Positions 36,772 through 49,229 of a stretch of DNA of 64,000 bases are shown piece by piece (the first letter of the stretch is position 1; each line of letters opens with the position of its first letter). Source of the DNA: Rhodothermia bacterium (lineage in GTDB: Bacteria > Bacteroidota > Rhodothermia > Balneolales > Balneolaceae). The stretch covers positions 186,001-250,000 of the forward strand of contig JAUICM010000006.1 of the NCBI GenBank assembly GCA_030427885.1, read 5' to 3'. The notes under the pieces were generated by a model that saw only the letters and a list, made by a program, of their open reading frames with translations, was not told the origin of the DNA and ran no database searches. The position numbers were made by a program, and so were the translations under genes.

Positions 36772-38061
36772 ATGAAATCAATGTCTTATAACGTATTACT
36801 AATCGGAAGTGGAGGAAGGGAGCATACCCTTGCCTGGGGAATAGCGAAATCACCCAAACTCAGCAAACTATTTATAGCCCCCGGTAACCCTGGTACCGCT
36901 TCTCTGGGTGATAATGTAAACCTGAATGTTTCTGATCATAATGCAGTACTGGAATTCATTGAGTCGAATGCAATTGATCTCACTGTTATTGGCCCGGAAC
37001 AACCTCTGGTGGAAGGAATAGCTGATTTTCTGGATGCAAAAGGTCATGCTGTATTTGGCCCAAAACAACAGGCGGCAATGCTGGAAGGGAGTAAAGAATT
37101 TGCCAAAGACTTCATGAAGCGTCAGAATATCCCTACCGCCAAATATGAAGTCTTCAGTCAGGATGAATTTGATAAGGCAGCGGAGTACATCAAATCGGAA
37201 AATAACTACCCGGTTGTGTTAAAAGCAGACGGACTTGCTGCAGGGAAAGGCGTGCTGATACCTGAATCAGAAGAAGAAGCGCTGAAAGCATTGGAAGAGT
37301 TGAGATCTGGAAGTCTGAGCGGCGCAGCTTCGCGCTTAGTGATCGAAGAGTTTATGGAAGGGGAAGAAGCTTCAGTTTTTGCGATCTGTGATGGAGATTC
37401 TTTCAAAGTGATCGGTAATGCACAAGACCATAAACGGGTGGGTGAAGGTGATACCGGACTAAATACCGGAGGGATGGGAGCTTATTCACCGGCACCAATT
37501 GTAACTCCGGAATTGCTCCAAAATGTTGAAGCAGATATCATCAAACCCACTATTGATGGCATGAAAGCTGAAGGATATCCGTATCAGGGAATTTTGTATG
37601 TAGGATTGATGATCACAAGTGAAGGCCCTAAAGTAGTGGAATACAATTGCCGTTTTGGTGATCCTGAATGTCAGGTGATAGTACCTGCCATGAGATCAGA
37701 TCTGCTGGAAGTGATAGCGGCATGCACAGAGGGTACACTTTCAGAAGCGGTGATCGATCTGGATTCCAGATACCGTTGCACTGTGGTAATGGCATCCGGG
37801 GGATATCCCGAAGCCTATGAAAAAGGAAAAGAGATAACCGGAATTGAAAAGGTTGATAAAGCCATCGTATTCCATGCCGGTACTAAAATGGAAGCCGGAA
37901 AATTACTTACTAATGGTGGGCGTGTGCTAAACGTAGTAGCTGAGGGAGAAACGCTTAAAGATGCGATTGATGCTTCCTATGCCCAGATCAATAAGATCCA
38001 CTTTGACAAAGCCTTTTACCGGAGCGATATTGGAGCCAAAGGTTTAAAAAGAGTTACATGA
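36772..38061 (+). CDS. purD: Phosphoribosylamine--glycine ligase PurD
   Basis: PurD condenses phosphoribosylamine and glycine in purine synthesis. The 429-residue ATP-grasp protein has VLLIGSGGREHTLAWGIAKS near the start, IAPGNPGTASLG, VIGPEQPLVEGIADFL, VVLKADGLAAGKGV for ATP binding, TGGMGAYSPAPIVTPE, and LYVGLMITSEGPKVVEYNCR with FGDPECQVI. A start at the second methionine (MSYNVLL, 36781) is equally likely. Its stop overlaps the next start as ATGA. Confidence 0.98.
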   Translation: MKSMSYNVLLIGSGGREHTLAWGIAKSPKLSKLFIAPGNPGTASLGDNVNLNVSDHNAVLEFIESNAIDLTVIGPEQPLVEGIADFLDAKGHAVFGPKQQAAMLEGSKEFAKDFMKRQNIPTAKYEVFSQDEFDKAAEYIKSENNYPVVLKADGLAAGKGVLIPESEEEALKALEELRSGSLSGAASRLVIEEFMEGEEASVFAICDGDSFKVIGNAQDHKRVGEGDTGLNTGGMGAYSPAPIVTPELLQNVEADIIKPTIDGMKAEGYPYQGILYVGLMITSEGPKVVEYNCRFGDPECQVIVPAMRSDLLEVIAACTEGTLSEAVIDLDSRYRCTVVMASGGYPEAYEKGKEITGIEKVDKAIVFHAGTKMEAGKLLTNGGRVLNVVAEGETLKDAIDASYAQINKIHFDKAFYRSDIGAKGLKRVT

Positions 38062-38936
38062 AACTCAGCATGCACCCCGTTCAAATTCAGAATTTTCCCC
38101 TCTTGAGAGGGGATTCAGGGGTGTGTTATTTAGCGGTTCTTTTGATGCTCTTGATGAGTGGCTCCTCATCAGCCCAAAATAAAGCAGTCCAACCGGAAGT
38201 ACTCTACAATAATCTCAGCAAACCAACTTCAGTTTACGCAACTCAAAACCACTTATTTGTAGTAGAATCAGGTAAGAACAGAGTGTTAAAATTTGACCAT
38301 TTTGGTCAGCTTATAGAAAGTTATGGTGGGCTGGGTGCAAACGAATACCAGTTTGATCTGCCAATCGATGTTGACGCTACCAACGGATTGAAGATCTATG
38401 TTTCTGATAACCGGAATAACAGGATACAGATCTTTGACCGGCACTTTCAGTATCTGTCGACACTAAAACGTTATCCATGGGGCCGATCGTCCCGGCCGAT
38501 ACGTCCTACTCAACTGGGAGTAAATAATTTCAATGAGTTGTTTTTCTACGATCAGGATTCGAACTCGATTATTAGTGTAGATGACAAAGGGAATAAAATG
38601 GATGAATTTCTTATTCCTGGGGTTATTCGTGAAGTTAGTGATCTTCAAGTGGTGGGCAAAGATCTCTATATTTTGGATCTGAAATCGAAGAAGTATCATA
38701 TTCTCACCTATAACGGAGTTCAGGCCCGGAGCTTTCCCTTGAATGGAGCCATCCAGATATTTGTAGACCGCAATGGGGAAGAGTGGCTGATCTATCCATC
38801 ATCCATTCAAAATTCCAGAAACCCTGAAGTGTTGATCGAGTTTCCTCAGGATATAACGATCAAAGACGTGACAAAGATCAACGGCGTTTTTTATATCCTG
38901 ACTAATAAATCTATGCTCTCAGCAGCAGCAGAATGA
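38058..38936 (+). CDS. NHL-type beta-propeller exported protein
   Basis: The frame gives 292 residues beginning at an ATG that overlaps the purD stop (ATGA). The first 20 or so codons, including FPLLRGDSGV, are encoded by a copy of the intergenic palindrome family (38096-38126). A GTG within that copy would start a plausible exported leader (CYLAVLLMLLMSGSSSAQ), so the real start may be there. The mature part has NHL-like repeats: NLSKPTSVYATQNHLFVVES, KNRVLKFDHFGQL, FDLPIDVDATNGLKIYVSDN, RNNRIQIFD. The function is unknown; the next gene is LuxE-like. Confidence 0.78.
   Translation: MKLSMHPVQIQNFPLLRGDSGVCYLAVLLMLLMSGSSSAQNKAVQPEVLYNNLSKPTSVYATQNHLFVVESGKNRVLKFDHFGQLIESYGGLGANEYQFDLPIDVDATNGLKIYVSDNRNNRIQIFDRHFQYLSTLKRYPWGRSSRPIRPTQLGVNNFNELFFYDQDSNSIISVDDKGNKMDEFLIPGVIREVSDLQVVGKDLYILDLKSKKYHILTYNGVQARSFPLNGAIQIFVDRNGEEWLIYPSSIQNSRNPEVLIEFPQDITIKDVTKINGVFYILTNKSMLSAAAE
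38096..38126 (+). repeat. GC-rich palindrome family (CCCCTC..GAGGGG), copy 2
   Basis: TCCCCTC TTGA GAGGGGATTC continues into AGGGGTGTGTT, the same order and spacing as the right half of copy 1. It lies inside the apparent start of the propeller gene and supplies the codons for the segment FPLLRGDSGVC. Confidence 0.9.
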
Positions 38937-41084: not shown

Positions 41085-43232
41085 CTAATTCGATATTGTA
41101 AAAGAGTTCCATTTGCCAGTGAAGTTATAGAACTTAAATGCCTCACTATCGCGAATTAATAATTGATTTGATTTCTTGAGGTAAAATATAGTTGGGTCTT
41201 CGAAAGTGCCAAACTCAGAAGCGAACCTAGTTTCTGAATTAACTTTAAGCGAAAAAATATCATCCGCAATTTCAAAAACGATAATGTCTAAAGTCGGAAC
41301 ATATGTTAGTAGCTTAATAAATTTGGAACTATAAAGAGAAGAAGAGATCATTGAAGTTAGGTTCATCAGCTTAATAGCGTCCGAAGAATAGAAAAGAGTA
41401 TCAGATTGCAGAAGGATTGATGAAATCGGAGTATCCTCCTGAATAATCTGTTCAACACCATCGGTATTTGCATTATAACTGACTATCGAGTTGTGACAAT
41501 TTGCAATAAACCTGTAATCTGAATTACTCCGAATTAAGCTTTCAATACAGCCACTTGATTCAAGTGTTTTTTCTGAAAGAAGTACCCCCGTAGAAATATT
41601 ATAAGTATATGCAATATCCTTTTTGGACTCATTACTATACTCTAATAAGATTATTTGTTTAGAATCGGATGAAAATTCGAATGATATTGGCCAATTATCA
41701 CGGACGTGTAAAGATTGAATCTCATTAAAGTTATCAGTATCAAAAATTTTTAAAGAGTAAGGCCCGTATACAGAAGCGCCATTCACAACTTCATATCTGA
41801 ATACTCTCGTTGCAACATATTTATTATCTGGTGATATATTAATGTCGTCCATAATATAATTTGGATAAGTTTTACCTTTTCTAGTTCCTGTAGTTAAGTC
41901 AAATTTAGATATCCTATTATTCGTATCAGTTATAAATAAATGATCATCATTTTTTGTAAGTACTAATTCCTCACCTTCTAAGGCAGGAGAAGTAATCTGC
42001 CTATCCAATGAAATTCCAGGTGCGAATTGTACTCCTTTTATTTGAGTTGGTTCTGAACTCAAGGTCTTGATTCTGTAAAAATAGGTATCAGATGCGTTCA
42101 AATTCTCATCTAACAAACTTTTCTCGGTCCGGGCTAGAGTATCAATTGGGGCAAAATTATCAGTACCATTTATAGATTTTTCTACTATAAAATTACCATG
42201 ACCGTTAGATTCAAAATAGTCCCAGAATAGCATTACAGATTTTTCAGAAACCGGTTCAATTTGAAAATTATGAGGTGGGTCTACAGAAAAAAAATTTGTA
42301 ATAAGCTCTGAACTACTTGTTTGGTTATCTGATACTGCAACTAAACTAAATTCATGTTGCTCTTCTGTTGCTCCGACATTCGTTCTATAAGAAGTCAGGT
42401 CTTTTGTTATAGTAAATTTTTCTGTTTTGTCTTCATATGTATGATATATCAGGAAATAGTCTTCAAAATCTGAGTTGTCACTCCATGAAAAAGAAACATT
42501 ATTTTCATTGTGGAATTTTAGATCAAAATTTGATGGTTGATTAATTTGGAATTTTTGTGATTCTGAACCTATTTCCTCAAAAAAACCAAAGGGGGTTTGA
42601 ACAAAAGTTTTTGCACGAATTGTAATACTAAACGTCTTTGGGAATTCTAAAGTAAATGTGCTTGAAGTATTTCCATATAAAGTGTCGATCGTTTCAAAAC
42701 TTGAAAGATCATTAGTGATATTTTTTTCTAGTACAATGGCATCATAGTTTGCAGAACTTGTCAACCAGCTTAGTTTTAGAAGATCACTACTTTCGTCAGC
42801 CAATCCGATAATATCAGTAACAACACCAAATTTGACTTCTGTTTGGAGTATTGCTCTTGTAGTATCATTTATTGAGGAATCTGAAATATCACCAAAAAAA
42901 GGTATGACTCTGTAGATGGTTTTGGCTCCAAATTCTTGACTGAGATCCTCATACTGTGATTGATTTGGAGAGAGTGTATCTATGTTTTCAAAAATTGGAT
43001 TAGATGAAATGCTTTTTTGGATCAAAAATCCCGATTCTGCAATTGACTCATCTTCCCAAATCAATTTTATGATTCCACTGCTGTCAATCTCGTTTCTAAG
43101 GTTACTAATTGATGGAACATACTTATTAGACTTAGGATCATTAATATTATCTCTTTCATAATCCGGACCTGTACTACAATAAGTAATAATCAATAATAAT
43201 GAGATTAAAACTACAGAATGGATTTTAGTCAT
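41085..43232 (-). CDS. FN3/beta-propeller lipoprotein, copy B (PEGA cluster)
   Basis: This 715-residue lipoprotein has a lipobox ending at the cysteine of IITYC near residue 19. Residues about 40-405 contain at least three fibronectin-III-like domains (IDSSGIIKLIWEDESIAESG, NVSFSWSDNSDFEDYFLIYH, KSVMLFWDYFESNGHGNFIV). The C-terminal half resembles a WD40/YVTN-like propeller (DINISPDNKYVATRVF, SFEFSSDSKQIILLEYSN). It overlaps the stop of the upstream PEGA gene by four bases. The same domain plan occurs in the gene at 44279-46261. The region is AT-rich (about 30% by eye). The ligand is unknown, and the pairing with a PEGA protein is the only clue. Confidence 0.82.
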   Translation of the reverse strand: MTKIHSVVLISLLLIITYCSTGPDYERDNINDPKSNKYVPSISNLRNEIDSSGIIKLIWEDESIAESGFLIQKSISSNPIFENIDTLSPNQSQYEDLSQEFGAKTIYRVIPFFGDISDSSINDTTRAILQTEVKFGVVTDIIGLADESSDLLKLSWLTSSANYDAIVLEKNITNDLSSFETIDTLYGNTSSTFTLEFPKTFSITIRAKTFVQTPFGFFEEIGSESQKFQINQPSNFDLKFHNENNVSFSWSDNSDFEDYFLIYHTYEDKTEKFTITKDLTSYRTNVGATEEQHEFSLVAVSDNQTSSSELITNFFSVDPPHNFQIEPVSEKSVMLFWDYFESNGHGNFIVEKSINGTDNFAPIDTLARTEKSLLDENLNASDTYFYRIKTLSSEPTQIKGVQFAPGISLDRQITSPALEGEELVLTKNDDHLFITDTNNRISKFDLTTGTRKGKTYPNYIMDDINISPDNKYVATRVFRYEVVNGASVYGPYSLKIFDTDNFNEIQSLHVRDNWPISFEFSSDSKQIILLEYSNESKKDIAYTYNISTGVLLSEKTLESSGCIESLIRSNSDYRFIANCHNSIVSYNANTDGVEQIIQEDTPISSILLQSDTLFYSSDAIKLMNLTSMISSSLYSSKFIKLLTYVPTLDIIVFEIADDIFSLKVNSETRFASEFGTFEDPTIFYLKKSNQLLIRDSEAFKFYNFTGKWNSFTISN

Positions 43233-44254
43233 GGCTTAAAACTCATTTGTAGAGTTGCTCTAGGAATAAAACCATTTTCAGTTAATTGATTCGAAAAATA
43301 AAAATTAAGAGGTTTTGCTTCATAATAACCTCCATTCGGTTTGCTTATAAAAGCATCAATTATGTTGTATATATATGAAATCATAGTGATGCTTAAGTAA
43401 ACTTGTCTTTTATTATCGAGTGTAGTCAAAATTTTATGTTGCTTATCTACCAAGTCACCTAATCTTAAAGCTTCTGATTCTGTTGTTGCAGAATTGTAGC
43501 GAAGGGTGAGATTAATAAAATCCCGATTTTCTAAACTGTACTTTTTGTTATTTCTGAACCATAAATAAGCAAAAAGAGACGTGCCACTAAATATTAAAGT
43601 TCCCTTTGTGTATTGCTTTTTATATATCTGACTTGCGCCAGGAACCAAACTCGCGGAATAAGCAAGTTTACGAATCGGTTTAACGAAGTATTCGTTTAAA
43701 GTAAGAGGTTTATTATTTCTGTATTTAATTTTTACATATGATGTTTTGTGGTAAGGATTTTTAAATTCGATAGTATTAACACCAGGTTTAAAATCTAAAA
43801 ATGCGAATCCTGTCCCTTTGAACTCTCCATCAAAATAAATGTCGGTATCACTATCAGTTTGCATAGCATAATTCGCATTCCAATATTCAGCTGCGGCGTA
43901 ATTTGCATACAAAGATTCACTAGAGACATTATTAGATTGAAATAAATACCGAACTATTGTAGTAGTCCCTGAACTGACATTTGGGAATTCCAGATATCTA
44001 ACATCAAAAGGGGTGTAAACCTCAACAACATGAGTACCTATTGGTAATCGAATGGAATCTCCTGATGCTATTTTCATAACTCCCATTACATCATTATCTA
44101 AAACAAGATGTGCTGAGTCGGTATTAAATTCGAATTTTAAGTAGCCTGATTGTTGTGCAGTACTAAACTGAAAAATAAATAGAGAGAACACAATGAAAAG
44201 ATACCATCGAATCATGGATATTTTTATATCTACTTTTTTTTGAAATTTAATCAT
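43229..44254 (-). CDS. PEGA-repeat membrane protein, copy B1
   Basis: This protein has 341 residues from the first ATG; a methionine 13 codons in (44215) begins a better signal peptide, MIRWYLFIVFSLFIFQFSTAQ. Two PEGA-like beta-modules follow: GYLKFEFNTDSAHLVLDNDV with LPIGTHVVEVYTP, then DTDIYFDGEFKGTGFAFLDF. A C-terminal part with one or two membrane helices (PGASQIYKKQYTKGTLIFSG, NIIDAFISKPNGGYYEAKPL) recalls DUF5683-type proteins. It is the most diverged of four paralogs in this cluster and is coupled to the downstream FN3/propeller lipoprotein gene. Confidence 0.78.
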   Translation of the reverse strand: MIKFQKKVDIKISMIRWYLFIVFSLFIFQFSTAQQSGYLKFEFNTDSAHLVLDNDVMGVMKIASGDSIRLPIGTHVVEVYTPFDVRYLEFPNVSSGTTTIVRYLFQSNNVSSESLYANYAAAEYWNANYAMQTDSDTDIYFDGEFKGTGFAFLDFKPGVNTIEFKNPYHKTSYVKIKYRNNKPLTLNEYFVKPIRKLAYSASLVPGASQIYKKQYTKGTLIFSGTSLFAYLWFRNNKKYSLENRDFINLTLRYNSATTESEALRLGDLVDKQHKILTTLDNKRQVYLSITMISYIYNIIDAFISKPNGGYYEAKPLNFYFSNQLTENGFIPRATLQMSFKP

Positions 44255-44278
44255 TTGTATAAGGCTGTTTAGCCAATT

Positions 44279-46261
44279 TTACTGTTCATTTGTAATAAAC
44301 AATTCCCATGTACTGTTTTGAAAGTCATACTTTTTAATTCCTTCATCTGTAAACACAATTATAAACTCATCGTTATCAGAAAGCAGGAACCCTGATAAGT
44401 GGTCTTCTAAATCAAAAGTATAAGGTCTCTCTAAACTTCTTCTAAAGCACCTTAATATTCTATCATCCACATTTTTTTTAATAACAACACACTTAAGTTG
44501 CCCGTTATTTGAAGAGCCGAAATAAGAAATAAAATGCGGTTCTTTATCAAACTCAAGAACTTCAATTTTTGGATTATCCATATCAATTCTCATAACTCCA
44601 TCATAAGTGCTGTGCAAATAATACACGTCTTCATTTTGAGAAAGAAGACCAGGATCACGTTCTGGTACTATATATTCTATTTCGTCGCTATTTAAGGTTA
44701 GTGTGTTCATTAGAGAGAAGTCATCAAGAGAGTAGCGAGTTAGTTTATTTTCAAAAACTTCGTATACCAATATTGACTTATCAGAGGATGCAAGTTTGAA
44801 GTAACCGGATTTATCAGTGGACGTCAAAACTTTAACAGTTTCTGAAGTATTCATGTCATATACAGATACTGAGAGTAATACAGAATTATCATTTTGAGGG
44901 GTGGGAGAGTAAAGAACTGCATACGGTGTATTTCTAACAAAATTAATTTCTGTAATGGACCCGGTTTGATAAAGTGGAGGTATAATTTTCTTCCGAGTAT
45001 GTGTTTCAATATCATTTAATTCTACAAACCAAAAATTCCCTTCATTGAAGTGACGCGAGAAAAGAGTGCTGTTATTATACTCAACTATTTGAGTGGTTAA
45101 ATGCCTGAGTTCAGGCTCGTATGCATAAACCTGTTGAAGATTTTCAAGGTCATAAACATATTGTGATCGATTTGATTTCGAGATTGTCGCATATCTTCCA
45201 TCAGAAGTAATTTCCCCCCCAATTTTTGAATTACTAGCAATGTTCGTGTTTATTTCCTGGGTAAGTTTCGGTGTTATATTACGGGCGATGCTGAAATAAA
45301 TATTATTTTCTGAATAGTAGGGACCTTTTTGTGCAGAAATTTTGAACTCATAGGAATGCTCATAAGAAAGTCCATCTATATTGAAAGAGCTGGAACAACT
45401 CTGAATTCGGTCAAATTCTGAATAATTGTTGGTGTTGGTATTTTTTTTTGATAAAACAATATTTGTTATTGGATCTCCATAATCTTCACAATGGATTTTC
45501 ACCTCGTTTTCTGAAATATGTTCAAGTATAATATTATTAGGAATTTTTACTGAAGCCGATGGAGTAAATATTAAGTCATTAGATCTGGTGTATTCGTTTT
45601 CGGCATATAATTTATATGTAATAAGTTCTTCTGGAAATGAATTATAAGCAATTGAGATAGTTTCAGAAGCTTGAAATTTTCGTAAGAACTCAAAATCCGA
45701 ATCACCGATTTTTTGTTCAATTGTTAATTGGGATAAAGGGCTAAAAGTGTGGGATATTGAAATATTTACACTATCTGAACTTACCCAATAAGCCTCAGCT
45801 GAATAGAGTGACTGATTTAAATCAGTCTGCACAGTATCTGAGAATACCTGAGTGCCATCTTCTTTTTCAAAGTATGCCAGAAGTCGATAATGAACATCAA
45901 TTAGGTTCCAATCAATTGTGTCTATGAACTCATTTTTATCGCTAGAGAGTTCTTTTATTAACTCATAATCTTGCTGTTCATCTTTGGATCTGTAAATCAA
46001 ATATCCGGTAACAAAATCTGAAACAGAAGCTTTCCAATTTAAGTTTATACCATCCGAAGTAAATGTGGCAGACAGGTTAGAGGGTTTTGATATCTCATAA
46101 TCTGAACTCTCTGGATCAACAGGATTAGTAGCTGAAAAGACCGGATTTTTTTTACAGTGCGTTAATACTAAGATCAAAGCCAAAATAGCCGTAATGGTAT
46201 AAAGAGGTTTTCTGATGCTCCTCACTGGGTGTTCAGGGGATATGCTAAAATTCCAATTCAA
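44279..46261 (-). CDS. FN3/beta-propeller lipoprotein, copy A (PEGA cluster)
   Basis: The frame gives 660 residues from a TTG that overlaps the previous stop. A GTG 12 codons in (46225) begins a better lipoprotein signal, RSIRKPLYTITAILALILVL then THC. The N-terminal part has FN3-like domains (SATFTSDGINLNWKASVSDF, VTGYLIYRSKDEQQDYELIK). The C-terminal half is a propeller-like region with SKIGGEITSDGRYATISKSN. It shares its plan with the gene at 41085-43232 and is likewise placed directly after a PEGA gene. G+C is about 27-30% where counted. Function unknown. Confidence 0.8.
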   Translation of the reverse strand: MNWNFSISPEHPVRSIRKPLYTITAILALILVLTHCKKNPVFSATNPVDPESSDYEISKPSNLSATFTSDGINLNWKASVSDFVTGYLIYRSKDEQQDYELIKELSSDKNEFIDTIDWNLIDVHYRLLAYFEKEDGTQVFSDTVQTDLNQSLYSAEAYWVSSDSVNISISHTFSPLSQLTIEQKIGDSDFEFLRKFQASETISIAYNSFPEELITYKLYAENEYTRSNDLIFTPSASVKIPNNIILEHISENEVKIHCEDYGDPITNIVLSKKNTNTNNYSEFDRIQSCSSSFNIDGLSYEHSYEFKISAQKGPYYSENNIYFSIARNITPKLTQEINTNIASNSKIGGEITSDGRYATISKSNRSQYVYDLENLQQVYAYEPELRHLTTQIVEYNNSTLFSRHFNEGNFWFVELNDIETHTRKKIIPPLYQTGSITEINFVRNTPYAVLYSPTPQNDNSVLLSVSVYDMNTSETVKVLTSTDKSGYFKLASSDKSILVYEVFENKLTRYSLDDFSLMNTLTLNSDEIEYIVPERDPGLLSQNEDVYYLHSTYDGVMRIDMDNPKIEVLEFDKEPHFISYFGSSNNGQLKCVVIKKNVDDRILRCFRRSLERPYTFDLEDHLSGFLLSDNDEFIIVFTDEGIKKYDFQNSTWELFITNEQ

Positions 46262-47241
46262 AACTCAATCTTTAGCTTAACTTCAGAATAGAGAGTTGAG
46301 TTAAAAGAGCTCATTTGTGCATGAACACGAGCTGGACCTTTATATCCTGATCTTGGTTTCAGAAAGCCATCGATAGTCGTAATTGCATATACTGCTAATG
46401 CACTTAAAGTAAACGCTCGAGTTTTAAAATTTATAGAATCCATTTCATCTAAGTATTTAATGGCTTGAGTTCTATACTGGACAGCTTGAACAGAGCTGGT
46501 AGTTAACAAGTATTCTTTATAAACAGAATCATATTTAGTTCTTATTTCATTATGCTTGTTGTTTTGAAAAAAAATCCCTGTACCTAAGGATGCTAGAGTG
46601 GCAATCGTAATTACGGCCCGAGTATTCCTTTTTTGGGAGAAATATCCGATTCCAGGGATGAACTTTAGTATTGGGGAAAAATTGAAAGGTCTTTCATTGT
46701 ATCTAGCAATAGTTTTAATGCTCTGAAAATCAGCGTTAAAACTTTTGGTAAGTTTTCCTTTTTCTGGATGTACTATTTGAAGTTTGTGTTTTCCAGCAGA
46801 TAATAATAACTCAGTATAATTACGGCCTACCAATTCACCATCAATAAAAATATCCGATTCCGAATCTGTAAATATTCTAATATTAATTTCATTTTGTAGA
46901 GCATGAAAAAAAGATCTTGGTCGTTTTGGGAATGTTGGAAAAAGTATGGTCTTTCTTGTTGTTTGACCGGTACGAACGTAAACCATTGTATTATAATCAT
47001 GTATGCTTTCACCAATGATTGTTAGTTCCTGATAACCGTGAGGTAAGAAAAGGCTATCGCCTGAATGATAAAGTTGGTGTTTTTCCAAATCTCTGTTGAT
47101 CAAAACAAAGAATTCAGGAATATTGATTTTTAATTTAACCCATCCATAATCAGTGCTATCATGTTCAGTAGGTTGAGCTAATGTGCCTATAGGTACTATT
47201 AAGAATAAAAGGATGAAAAGAGAAGGTAATGGAAACTTCAA
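46258..47241 (-). CDS. PEGA-repeat membrane protein, copy A1
   Basis: This 327-residue protein has the signal peptide MKFPLPSLFILLFLIVPIGT-LAQ. It carries two PEGA-like modules (GWVKLKINIPEFFVLINRDL with LPHGYQELTIIG; DSESDIFIDGELVGRNYTEL with SAGKHKLQIVHPEKGKLTKS). After RYNERPFNFSPILKFIPGIG comes a membrane helix and then a helical stretch; a second hydrophobic segment and TTIDGFLKPRSGYKGPARVH precede a final beta-strand. This order matches the genes at 47329 and 48282. Its stop overlaps the start of the FN3/propeller lipoprotein. It probably sits in the envelope; the role is unknown. Confidence 0.8.
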   Translation of the reverse strand: MKFPLPSLFILLFLIVPIGTLAQPTEHDSTDYGWVKLKINIPEFFVLINRDLEKHQLYHSGDSLFLPHGYQELTIIGESIHDYNTMVYVRTGQTTRKTILFPTFPKRPRSFFHALQNEINIRIFTDSESDIFIDGELVGRNYTELLLSAGKHKLQIVHPEKGKLTKSFNADFQSIKTIARYNERPFNFSPILKFIPGIGYFSQKRNTRAVITIATLASLGTGIFFQNNKHNEIRTKYDSVYKEYLLTTSSVQAVQYRTQAIKYLDEMDSINFKTRAFTLSALAVYAITTIDGFLKPRSGYKGPARVHAQMSSFNSTLYSEVKLKIEF

Positions 47242-47328
47242 TTGATCAAGTGGTTAGATGATTTGATCGAACCGAATATAAAAGAAAAAATCAGAAGTAA
47301 AACAGAAACAATAGCTAGTGTTTAAGCT

Positions 47329-48249
47329 TTAGTTGGTGAACCTGTATGTAAAAGTAACTTCCGGATAGGTTATGGAGCTCACAGAATTGGCTGACAGATC
47401 AAAATCGACCTTTTTACCCGGATACCCATTTTTTGGCTTTCGGAAGCTATCAATTGTAGTAAGCAGGTAAAATCCGAAAAAGCCTAGTCTGGACAAGTCA
47501 CGGTTGCGCTTAAGATTCGTCAGGTGCTGTTTAGAAACGGTTATATAGTCGCCATAGAAATCATACTCACTTTTCGCATCATTATATTTCTGTGTAGTGC
47601 TATACCATGAAAAACCAAGGCCGGCTAAAACAAGGTAAGTGCCAATGGCACGTTGGTTCTGTCCGTTTATCAGATATCCCGCCCCGGGCAGGATCTTCAT
47701 AGCAGGATTGAACTTGATGGGATTAACATTGTATCTGGCGTAAGAAAGCCCTTCAGCATATCCGATCTCTATCTTGTCTTTGAGTGAACCTTCATCAGGG
47801 TGCTCGATTCGTAATTTGTAGGTACCCGGATTCAAAAGCAGGGAAGCCTGGGATAACCCGACTTCCTGATCGTCAATATAAATAACAGATTCATCGTCTG
47901 TCTGAATGATCACATTTGTTTCATTCATGAGATACTTCCAGGAGGAATTATGATCGATCCGGAAGGTTGAAATTTGTTCTTTGACAAGGGTTGTTTTGCC
48001 TTCTTCAACAAAAACATCACGAAATATGTCATCAAAATAGTGCGAAATCATAGTTATTGTATGTTCACCGGTAGGAACAGAGACCGAATCTCCGGATGTA
48101 ATTAATCTGCTTTGGTGAAAATCATTATCAGGTACCACATAAAAAGTACCCGGAACATTTACTTCAAATCTGACATATCCCGTTTGTGCGGATACCCCGG
48201 AATTGATCATTAAAATAAAAACGAAGAAGAGGTAAAGAGCTCTGGACAA
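47329..48249 (-). CDS. PEGA-repeat membrane protein, copy 3
   Basis: This 306-residue protein has the signal peptide MSRALYLFFVFILMINSGVSAQ. Its two PEGA-like modules read GYVRFEVNVPGTFYVVPDND with VPTGEHTITMIS, and DDESVIYIDDQEVGLSQASL with LNPGTYKLRIEHPDEGSLKD. The shared block RYNVNPIKFNPAMKILPGAG then leads to a membrane helix, and TTIDSFRKPKNGYPGKKVDF to the terminal beta-strand TYPEVTFTYRFTN. The composition is that of the surrounding genome (about 42%), unlike copies A1 and B1. It is the third gene of a four-paralog series and has no lipoprotein partner. Confidence 0.82.
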   Translation of the reverse strand: MSRALYLFFVFILMINSGVSAQTGYVRFEVNVPGTFYVVPDNDFHQSRLITSGDSVSVPTGEHTITMISHYFDDIFRDVFVEEGKTTLVKEQISTFRIDHNSSWKYLMNETNVIIQTDDESVIYIDDQEVGLSQASLLLNPGTYKLRIEHPDEGSLKDKIEIGYAEGLSYARYNVNPIKFNPAMKILPGAGYLINGQNQRAIGTYLVLAGLGFSWYSTTQKYNDAKSEYDFYGDYITVSKQHLTNLKRNRDLSRLGFFGFYLLTTIDSFRKPKNGYPGKKVDFDLSANSVSSITYPEVTFTYRFTN

Positions 48250-48281
48250 GACGTATTCGGATTTGGTTTTAAAACAGAGAA

Positions 48282-49229
48282 TTAATTTTTAAACCGATAG
48301 GTCAAAGTAAGTTCCGGGTAGATCTGGGAATCGAACATATTACCGGCAAACTCAAATTCTACGGGTTTACCCAGATATCCTTCTTTTGGTTTTCGGAGTC
48401 CGTCAAAAGTAGAATACAGATACACGGCAACAATAGCGGCCCCGTAGATAGCTCTTTTTCTGCTCAGACTTTCTTCCCGGTCTTTTTGCTGAACAATGGT
48501 ACCGGATGGATAGTGTTTGGCGTTATAATACTCCCGGTTTGTCAGAACAAATCCGGTGGTAAGTCCGGCTAAGGCTGCATAAGTGATGGATGCTTTCACA
48601 TATTCTTTTTTACTGAGGTAAGCAACTCCAGGAAGGAACCGGTCAAATGTGGGAGGGCCTTCAGGATTCTCATTGTACCGGGTAACCGAAATTCCAGAAC
48701 CATATCCTACATTCAGTTTTTTCTTCAGGGTTCCATAGTCTTTATGTCGGATAAGAAGGTTATGTGATCCGGGTGATAACAATAACTCCGAATACGCGGT
48801 GTCCACTTTATTACCATCTATATAAATAACCGAATGACGGTCAGTCTGAACGATCACATTTTTATTGAATCGCAGGTAATTAAAGGATGTGTATGGCCGG
48901 TATTCTTCTTTGGAAGGTTCGAATTTTACGGTTTCAGTTTCTCCCGATGTTATAGATACTTCTTTGAATATATCGTCATAGTCTCTGAAGATGAGGGAAA
49001 GTTTATGTGTTCCGGGCTCAACGGGAATCCGAAGTTCTGGAGTGATTAAGCGCTTACTTTCAAAGTCATCATCAATTATAACGAAAAATGAATCTGTGGT
49101 GCTGGTTTCAAATTCAACCCAGCCCTGATCCTGTTGCTTAGCAGACAGATCTGTGGTTAGAAAAAAAACAGGAATTAACAGCGTAAGTAGTAATGACTTT
49201 TTAACCATATTTGTTCTTGCCATGATCAA
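48282..49229 (-). CDS. PEGA-repeat membrane protein, copy 4
   Basis: The frame gives 315 residues; the methionine at residue 8 (MVKKSLLLTLLIPVFFLTTD) begins a better signal peptide. The two PEGA-like modules are GWVEFETSTTDSFFVIIDDD with VEPGTHKLSLIF, and DRHSVIYIDGNKVDTAYSEL with LSPGSHNLLIRHKDYGTLKK. The common core RYNENPEGPPTFDRFLPGVA precedes a membrane helix, and YSTFDGLRKPKEGYLGKPVE precedes the final beta-strand YPELTLTYRFKN. It is the first gene of the series as transcribed and diverges from leuS. Ends such as YRFKN/YRFTN look like a strand from an outer-membrane or membrane-associated beta-structure. Confidence 0.82.
   Translation of the reverse strand: MIMARTNMVKKSLLLTLLIPVFFLTTDLSAKQQDQGWVEFETSTTDSFFVIIDDDFESKRLITPELRIPVEPGTHKLSLIFRDYDDIFKEVSITSGETETVKFEPSKEEYRPYTSFNYLRFNKNVIVQTDRHSVIYIDGNKVDTAYSELLLSPGSHNLLIRHKDYGTLKKKLNVGYGSGISVTRYNENPEGPPTFDRFLPGVAYLSKKEYVKASITYAALAGLTTGFVLTNREYYNAKHYPSGTIVQQKDREESLSRKRAIYGAAIVAVYLYSTFDGLRKPKEGYLGKPVEFEFAGNMFDSQIYPELTLTYRFKN

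Follow-up and report, generated by a model that had tools for sequence, protein, structure and literature searches.

Conserved pairing of PEGA/DUF5683 and lipoprotein genes in Bacteroidota: probably an uncharacterised envelope system

Main Finding and Organization of the Locus

A gene for a PEGA/DUF5683 protein and a gene for a lipoprotein, usually overlapping or nearly overlapping, form a conserved and co-inherited unit, in which each paralogue class of the PEGA protein goes with its own lipoprotein class. In the window, that is, the whole stretch of 64,000 nucleotides that was analysed, six ORFs located at 41085-49229, all on the minus strand, most likely represent two copies of such a cognate envelope pair, accompanied by two extra membrane partners.

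The order of the genes is P4, P3, P2, L2, P1, L1, with gaps of 32, 87, -4, 24 (44255-44278) and -4 bases. P4 (48282..49229, 315 aa), which heads the run, and P3 (47329..48249, 306 aa) are solo copies of the PEGA/DUF5683 type; P2 (46258..47241, 327 aa) has L2 as its partner (type B), and P1 (43229..44254, 341 aa) has L1 (type A). L2 (44279..46261, 660 aa) is an FN3 lipoprotein, whose TTG start is uncertain, and L1 (41085..43232, 715 aa) is an FN3/propeller lipoprotein. A preliminary description of this DNA had noted that two PEGA genes overlap the start of a lipoprotein gene; indeed, both overlaps measure exactly 4 bases, TTGA between the P2 stop and the L2 start (46258..46261, minus strand) and ATGA between the P1 stop and the L1 start (43229..43232, minus strand). 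Such overlaps may allow translational coupling, which would keep the amounts of both partners matched. Elsewhere in the window, an NHL-repeat protein with a hydrophobic start is encoded at 38058-38936; its gene adjoins a purD-like gene and is convergent with the cluster.

The PEGA/DUF5683 Proteins

P1-P4 are homologous over their full length and are the sole members of such a close type in the genome: the other three copies are 39, 35 and 28% identical to P4, with E values from 3e-58 to 9e-16. The relatedness of the four proteins and their shared plan, as originally described, are thus real, and the plan comprises a signal peptide, two PEGA modules, a PG-led hydrophobic helix and a second hydrophobic stretch. 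The motifs proposed at the same time are less uniform: PGxGY is exact in P2 and P3, but reads PGVAY in P4 and PGASQ in P1, while xVIYIDG and LLLxPGxHxLxIxH can be read clearly in P3 and P4 but are eroded in P2 and weak in P1.

Both Pfam families are recognized in part of the set. The resemblance to PEGA (PF08308, curated cut-off 20.8 bits) lies in the two beta-sandwich modules and the xVIYIDG motif; two of the four copies, P3 (28.6 bits) and P4 (29.1 bits, E 9.5e-7), exceed the cut-off, whereas P2 (18.7 bits) is under it and P1 gave no match to the PEGA profile, the latter two being recognized via their paralogues alone. The resemblance to DUF5683 (PF18935, cut-off 26.7 bits) lies in the PG-led helical hairpin, with a D in its second helix; P1 passes the cut-off with 44.2 bits, P3 is borderline (26.4 bits, rising to 29 when its neighbours in the frame are included), and P2 and P4 remain below it.

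The AlphaFold2 model of P3 (mean pLDDT 91.7) contains two beta-sandwich modules, a long helical hairpin at 198-268, formed by helices 198-235 and 237-268, and a C-terminal beta-hairpin at 281-302; the first module resembles transthyretin-like and CnaB-like domains. For the membrane part, no convincing solved relative was found by sequence. Since the structural matches are common sandwich folds and helical hairpins, they are uninformative on whether the fold is new.

The Lipoproteins

L1 and L2 are homologous across the lipobox and the first FN3 (BLASTP E 2e-7). Both carry a signal peptide with a lipobox cysteine, C19 of L1 and C36 of L2, as judged from a pattern check alone; the lipobox reads TYC followed by STGPDYERDNINDP in L1, and THC followed by KKNPVFSATNPVDP in L2. 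The conserved portion of the lipoprotein is its start, in which C19, R27, N29 and D32 are invariant, and the FN3/propeller arm is the least conserved portion.

The two proteins had been described as made of FN3 domains and a propeller. The FN3 part holds for both, which pass the FN3 cut-off (PF00041, 25 bits) with 27.3 bits for L1 and 32.5 bits for L2; the propeller is instead a prediction, as the Pfam search of L1 and L2 returned no propeller or WD40 match, while relatives of L1 match WD40 models. The AlphaFold2 model of L1 (mean pLDDT 74.5) shows about four FN3 modules and then propeller-like strands, with an unreliable segment at 599-679 (pLDDT <50); for L2, a propeller-like C-terminal half is putative.

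Conservation of the Pair and of Its Partner Classes

The two-gene unit noted in the preliminary description proved to be conserved among relatives. In 92 genomes of the host family, with strong matches defined by E <1e-15 for PEGA and E <1e-12 for the lipoprotein, PEGA matches occur in 18 genomes; the lipoprotein is found in 17 of these 18 and in 0/74 of the rest (Fisher p 1.3e-17, a p-value that overstates independence because the genomes are related). A lipoprotein with a C...NxxDP start lies directly 3' of 29 of the 34 family PEGA genes whose close neighbour is not a PEGA gene, a count from which PEGA genes followed by a further PEGA gene are omitted, versus 4/163 background neighbours; at the family loci it mostly starts -29 to +15 bases after the PEGA gene.

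A profile built from 41 PEGA proteins has members in 18 of the 39 genera of the order. The lipoprotein adjoins the PEGA gene at six loci from other families of the order and, within the phylum, at nine loci from other families, with further adjoining pairs at three more; in one of these cases (L214) the lipoprotein has FN3 plus a WD40-type propeller match. In one family, represented by three loci, the 3' lipoprotein has no NxxDP motif, and two loci (L230 and L242) have no clear partner. The gene context of loci elsewhere, which includes cytochrome and NrfD genes or DUF58 and DUF4350 genes, pointed to no function in common.

Partner classes, assigned by eye from the lipoprotein sequence independently of the PEGA sequence, are followed by the PEGA tree, in which class B, with most solo copies, is split from the rest with an SH-aLRT of 99 (a quick tree, in which P2 was placed and long branches are present); this suggests that the two pairs are old and that each PEGA class retains its lipoprotein class. 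PEGA distances correlate with lipoprotein N-terminal distances (Mantel r 0.51), a value reached by 0/5000 partner swaps within genomes (maximum 0.495). This agreement of trees and distances shows co-inheritance with a fixed partner class but, by itself, no contact; the trees would agree equally well if a linked cassette had simply been duplicated. The earlier suggestion that the unit was multiplied by duplication is supported, with the correction that, according to the tree, the split between the two pair types predates the genera compared.

It might be argued that linkage and shared regulation simply keep the two genes together, while their products serve separate envelope tasks. Contact between the products is indeed only proposed, and matching trees are expected from cassette duplication alone; however, the pairing recurs in distant families and at differing positions in the genome, and the partner class is conserved within genomes, which makes mere linkage unlikely.

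Age and Origin of the Locus

As first described, the paired copies are AT-rich and the solo copies less so: their G+C is 0.316-0.334 and 0.408, respectively, with a mean of 0.442 for the flanking genes. The pairs are thus about 11 points under the flanking-gene mean, as expected of a recently acquired AT-rich island, and acquisition had been raised as a possibility accordingly. However, the cluster lies next to leuS in 12 relatives, of which 11 also carry counterparts of the window genes on the opposite flank, so that the position between leuS and the flanking block is shared. By the closest matches of its leuS, the genome itself falls near Balneolaceae. Furthermore, in every relative examined the G+C of the PEGA and lipoprotein genes is under the flank mean, indicating that the low G+C belongs to the genes themselves and was not left by a transfer. 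The divergence is also deep: LeuS is 80-85% identical between these genomes, whereas P1 reaches 35% at best, indicating that the pair evolves fast. Synteny and composition in relatives both indicate that the locus is old and resident; the acquisition initially considered is not supported, and a recent arrival, contradicted by the shared synteny and now very improbable, was rejected.

Membrane Location and Proposed Role

By analogy, insertion of the PEGA protein in the inner membrane is taken as the default. The two helices are marginally hydrophobic (mean best 19-residue KD 1.03 and 1.34, about one in ten reaching 1.6), and on the PEGA side the flanks of both helices carry positive charge, features that together fit poorly with simple inner-membrane insertion. 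In the C-terminal strand, hydrophobic residues alternate with polar ones, and the last residue is F in 33 of 39 PEGA sequences; a strict beta-signal-like pattern, with a C-terminal aromatic and alternating hydrophobics, is found in 19/41 PEGA proteins versus 2/338 background proteins. This resemblance to an outer-membrane beta-signal would be compatible with a role in the outer membrane. In such a case, the PEGA/DUF5683 protein would lie outside the inner membrane, with an amphipathic C-terminal hairpin bearing the beta-signal, and several subunits would assemble in the outer membrane into a small oligomer, by which the cognate lipoprotein is held or displayed; as regards a barrel, the P3 model predicts a two-strand hairpin alone. 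This arrangement is considered improbable.

The reading of the pair as a cognate envelope unit, in which we infer the contact, the membrane location and the ligand, falls just short of an even chance. The PEGA protein would be exported, with its helical hairpin as the membrane anchor, and would dock the lipoprotein through two periplasmic PEGA domains that bind the conserved start of the mature form (Cys...NxxDP plus the first FN3). The lipoprotein would reside in the outer membrane and bind a ligand or a surface structure by its FN3/propeller arm. Thus, the pair may act as a receptor or a tether, in which a binding arm at the outer membrane is linked to a membrane anchor; it is in this sense that we infer a joint function of the two proteins. 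The lack of a lipoprotein of their own for P3 and P4 counts against this reading.

A working model for docking is provided by PpkA-RtkS of Serratia type VI secretion (PMC6082577; 9k1u), where a small periplasmic module of similar fold is bound by a secreted partner. RtkS contacts the periplasmic domain of PpkA directly (PMC6082577), and a Foldseek search with the PEGA model matched the solved complex of RtkS and PpkA (9k1u); at the sequence level the match of PpkA to the PEGA protein is weak. Unlike the window, which has no kinase, PpkA is a kinase, and the comparison carries no claim of homology.

Alternatively, the PEGA protein may be a dedicated factor for the export, stability or surface display of its lipoprotein, with no lasting receptor being formed. 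This would suit the PEGA gene coming first and overlapping or nearly overlapping its partner, the single PEGA class per lipoprotein class, and the conserved lipoprotein start (C19, R27, N29, D32), which is the portion that such a factor would read. However, this genome has extra PEGA copies with no lipoprotein, and relatives contain fusions of PEGA-DUF5683 with a caspase-like domain, more in keeping with an anchor than with a cargo factor; a role of this kind is accordingly regarded as unlikely. A function in anti-phage defence was also considered and rejected, as PADLOC profiles gave no match for any of the six window proteins.

Related Units and Significance

A further unit of the same kind as the window pairs is present in the same genome (locus L257, contig C4, 2955-5873), where a 655-aa multi-PEGA protein with a DUF5683-like end is followed, 3 bases 3', by a 315-aa FN3-like lipoprotein. 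Other arrangements were also encountered. At L096 (7619-11189) and L241 (130-2989), a PEGA-DUF5683 protein with an N-terminal caspase-like (Peptidase_C14) domain precedes a lipoprotein; its C-terminal part and the kind of 3' lipoprotein are as in the window, from which the Peptidase_C14 domain is absent. In the same genome as the window, a DUF5683-type protein (L258, 3301-7625) overlaps a 1126-aa protein in which, by eye, propeller-like segments are repeated and the C-terminus is outer-membrane-like, and a short DUF5683 protein (L259) adjoins ParA/ParB-like genes. The latter arrangement, seen also at L093-L095 and L097, is unlike the window, with no PEGA domains seen and no lipoprotein immediately 3'. 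At L245 and L249, short DUF5683 proteins devoid of PEGA precede a small lipoprotein gene, which overlaps them or begins at most 5 bases away.

The open literature that was searched for DUF5683, PEGA lipoproteins and Balneolaceae lipoproteins has no description of the pair, and it mentions DUF5683 in a single paper, on a nematode. The unit, kept in several Bacteroidota families, is thus probably a real yet uncharacterised envelope system. As its partner class is readable from the sequence, it offers a first way into the functions of DUF5683 and of PEGA domains outside kinases.
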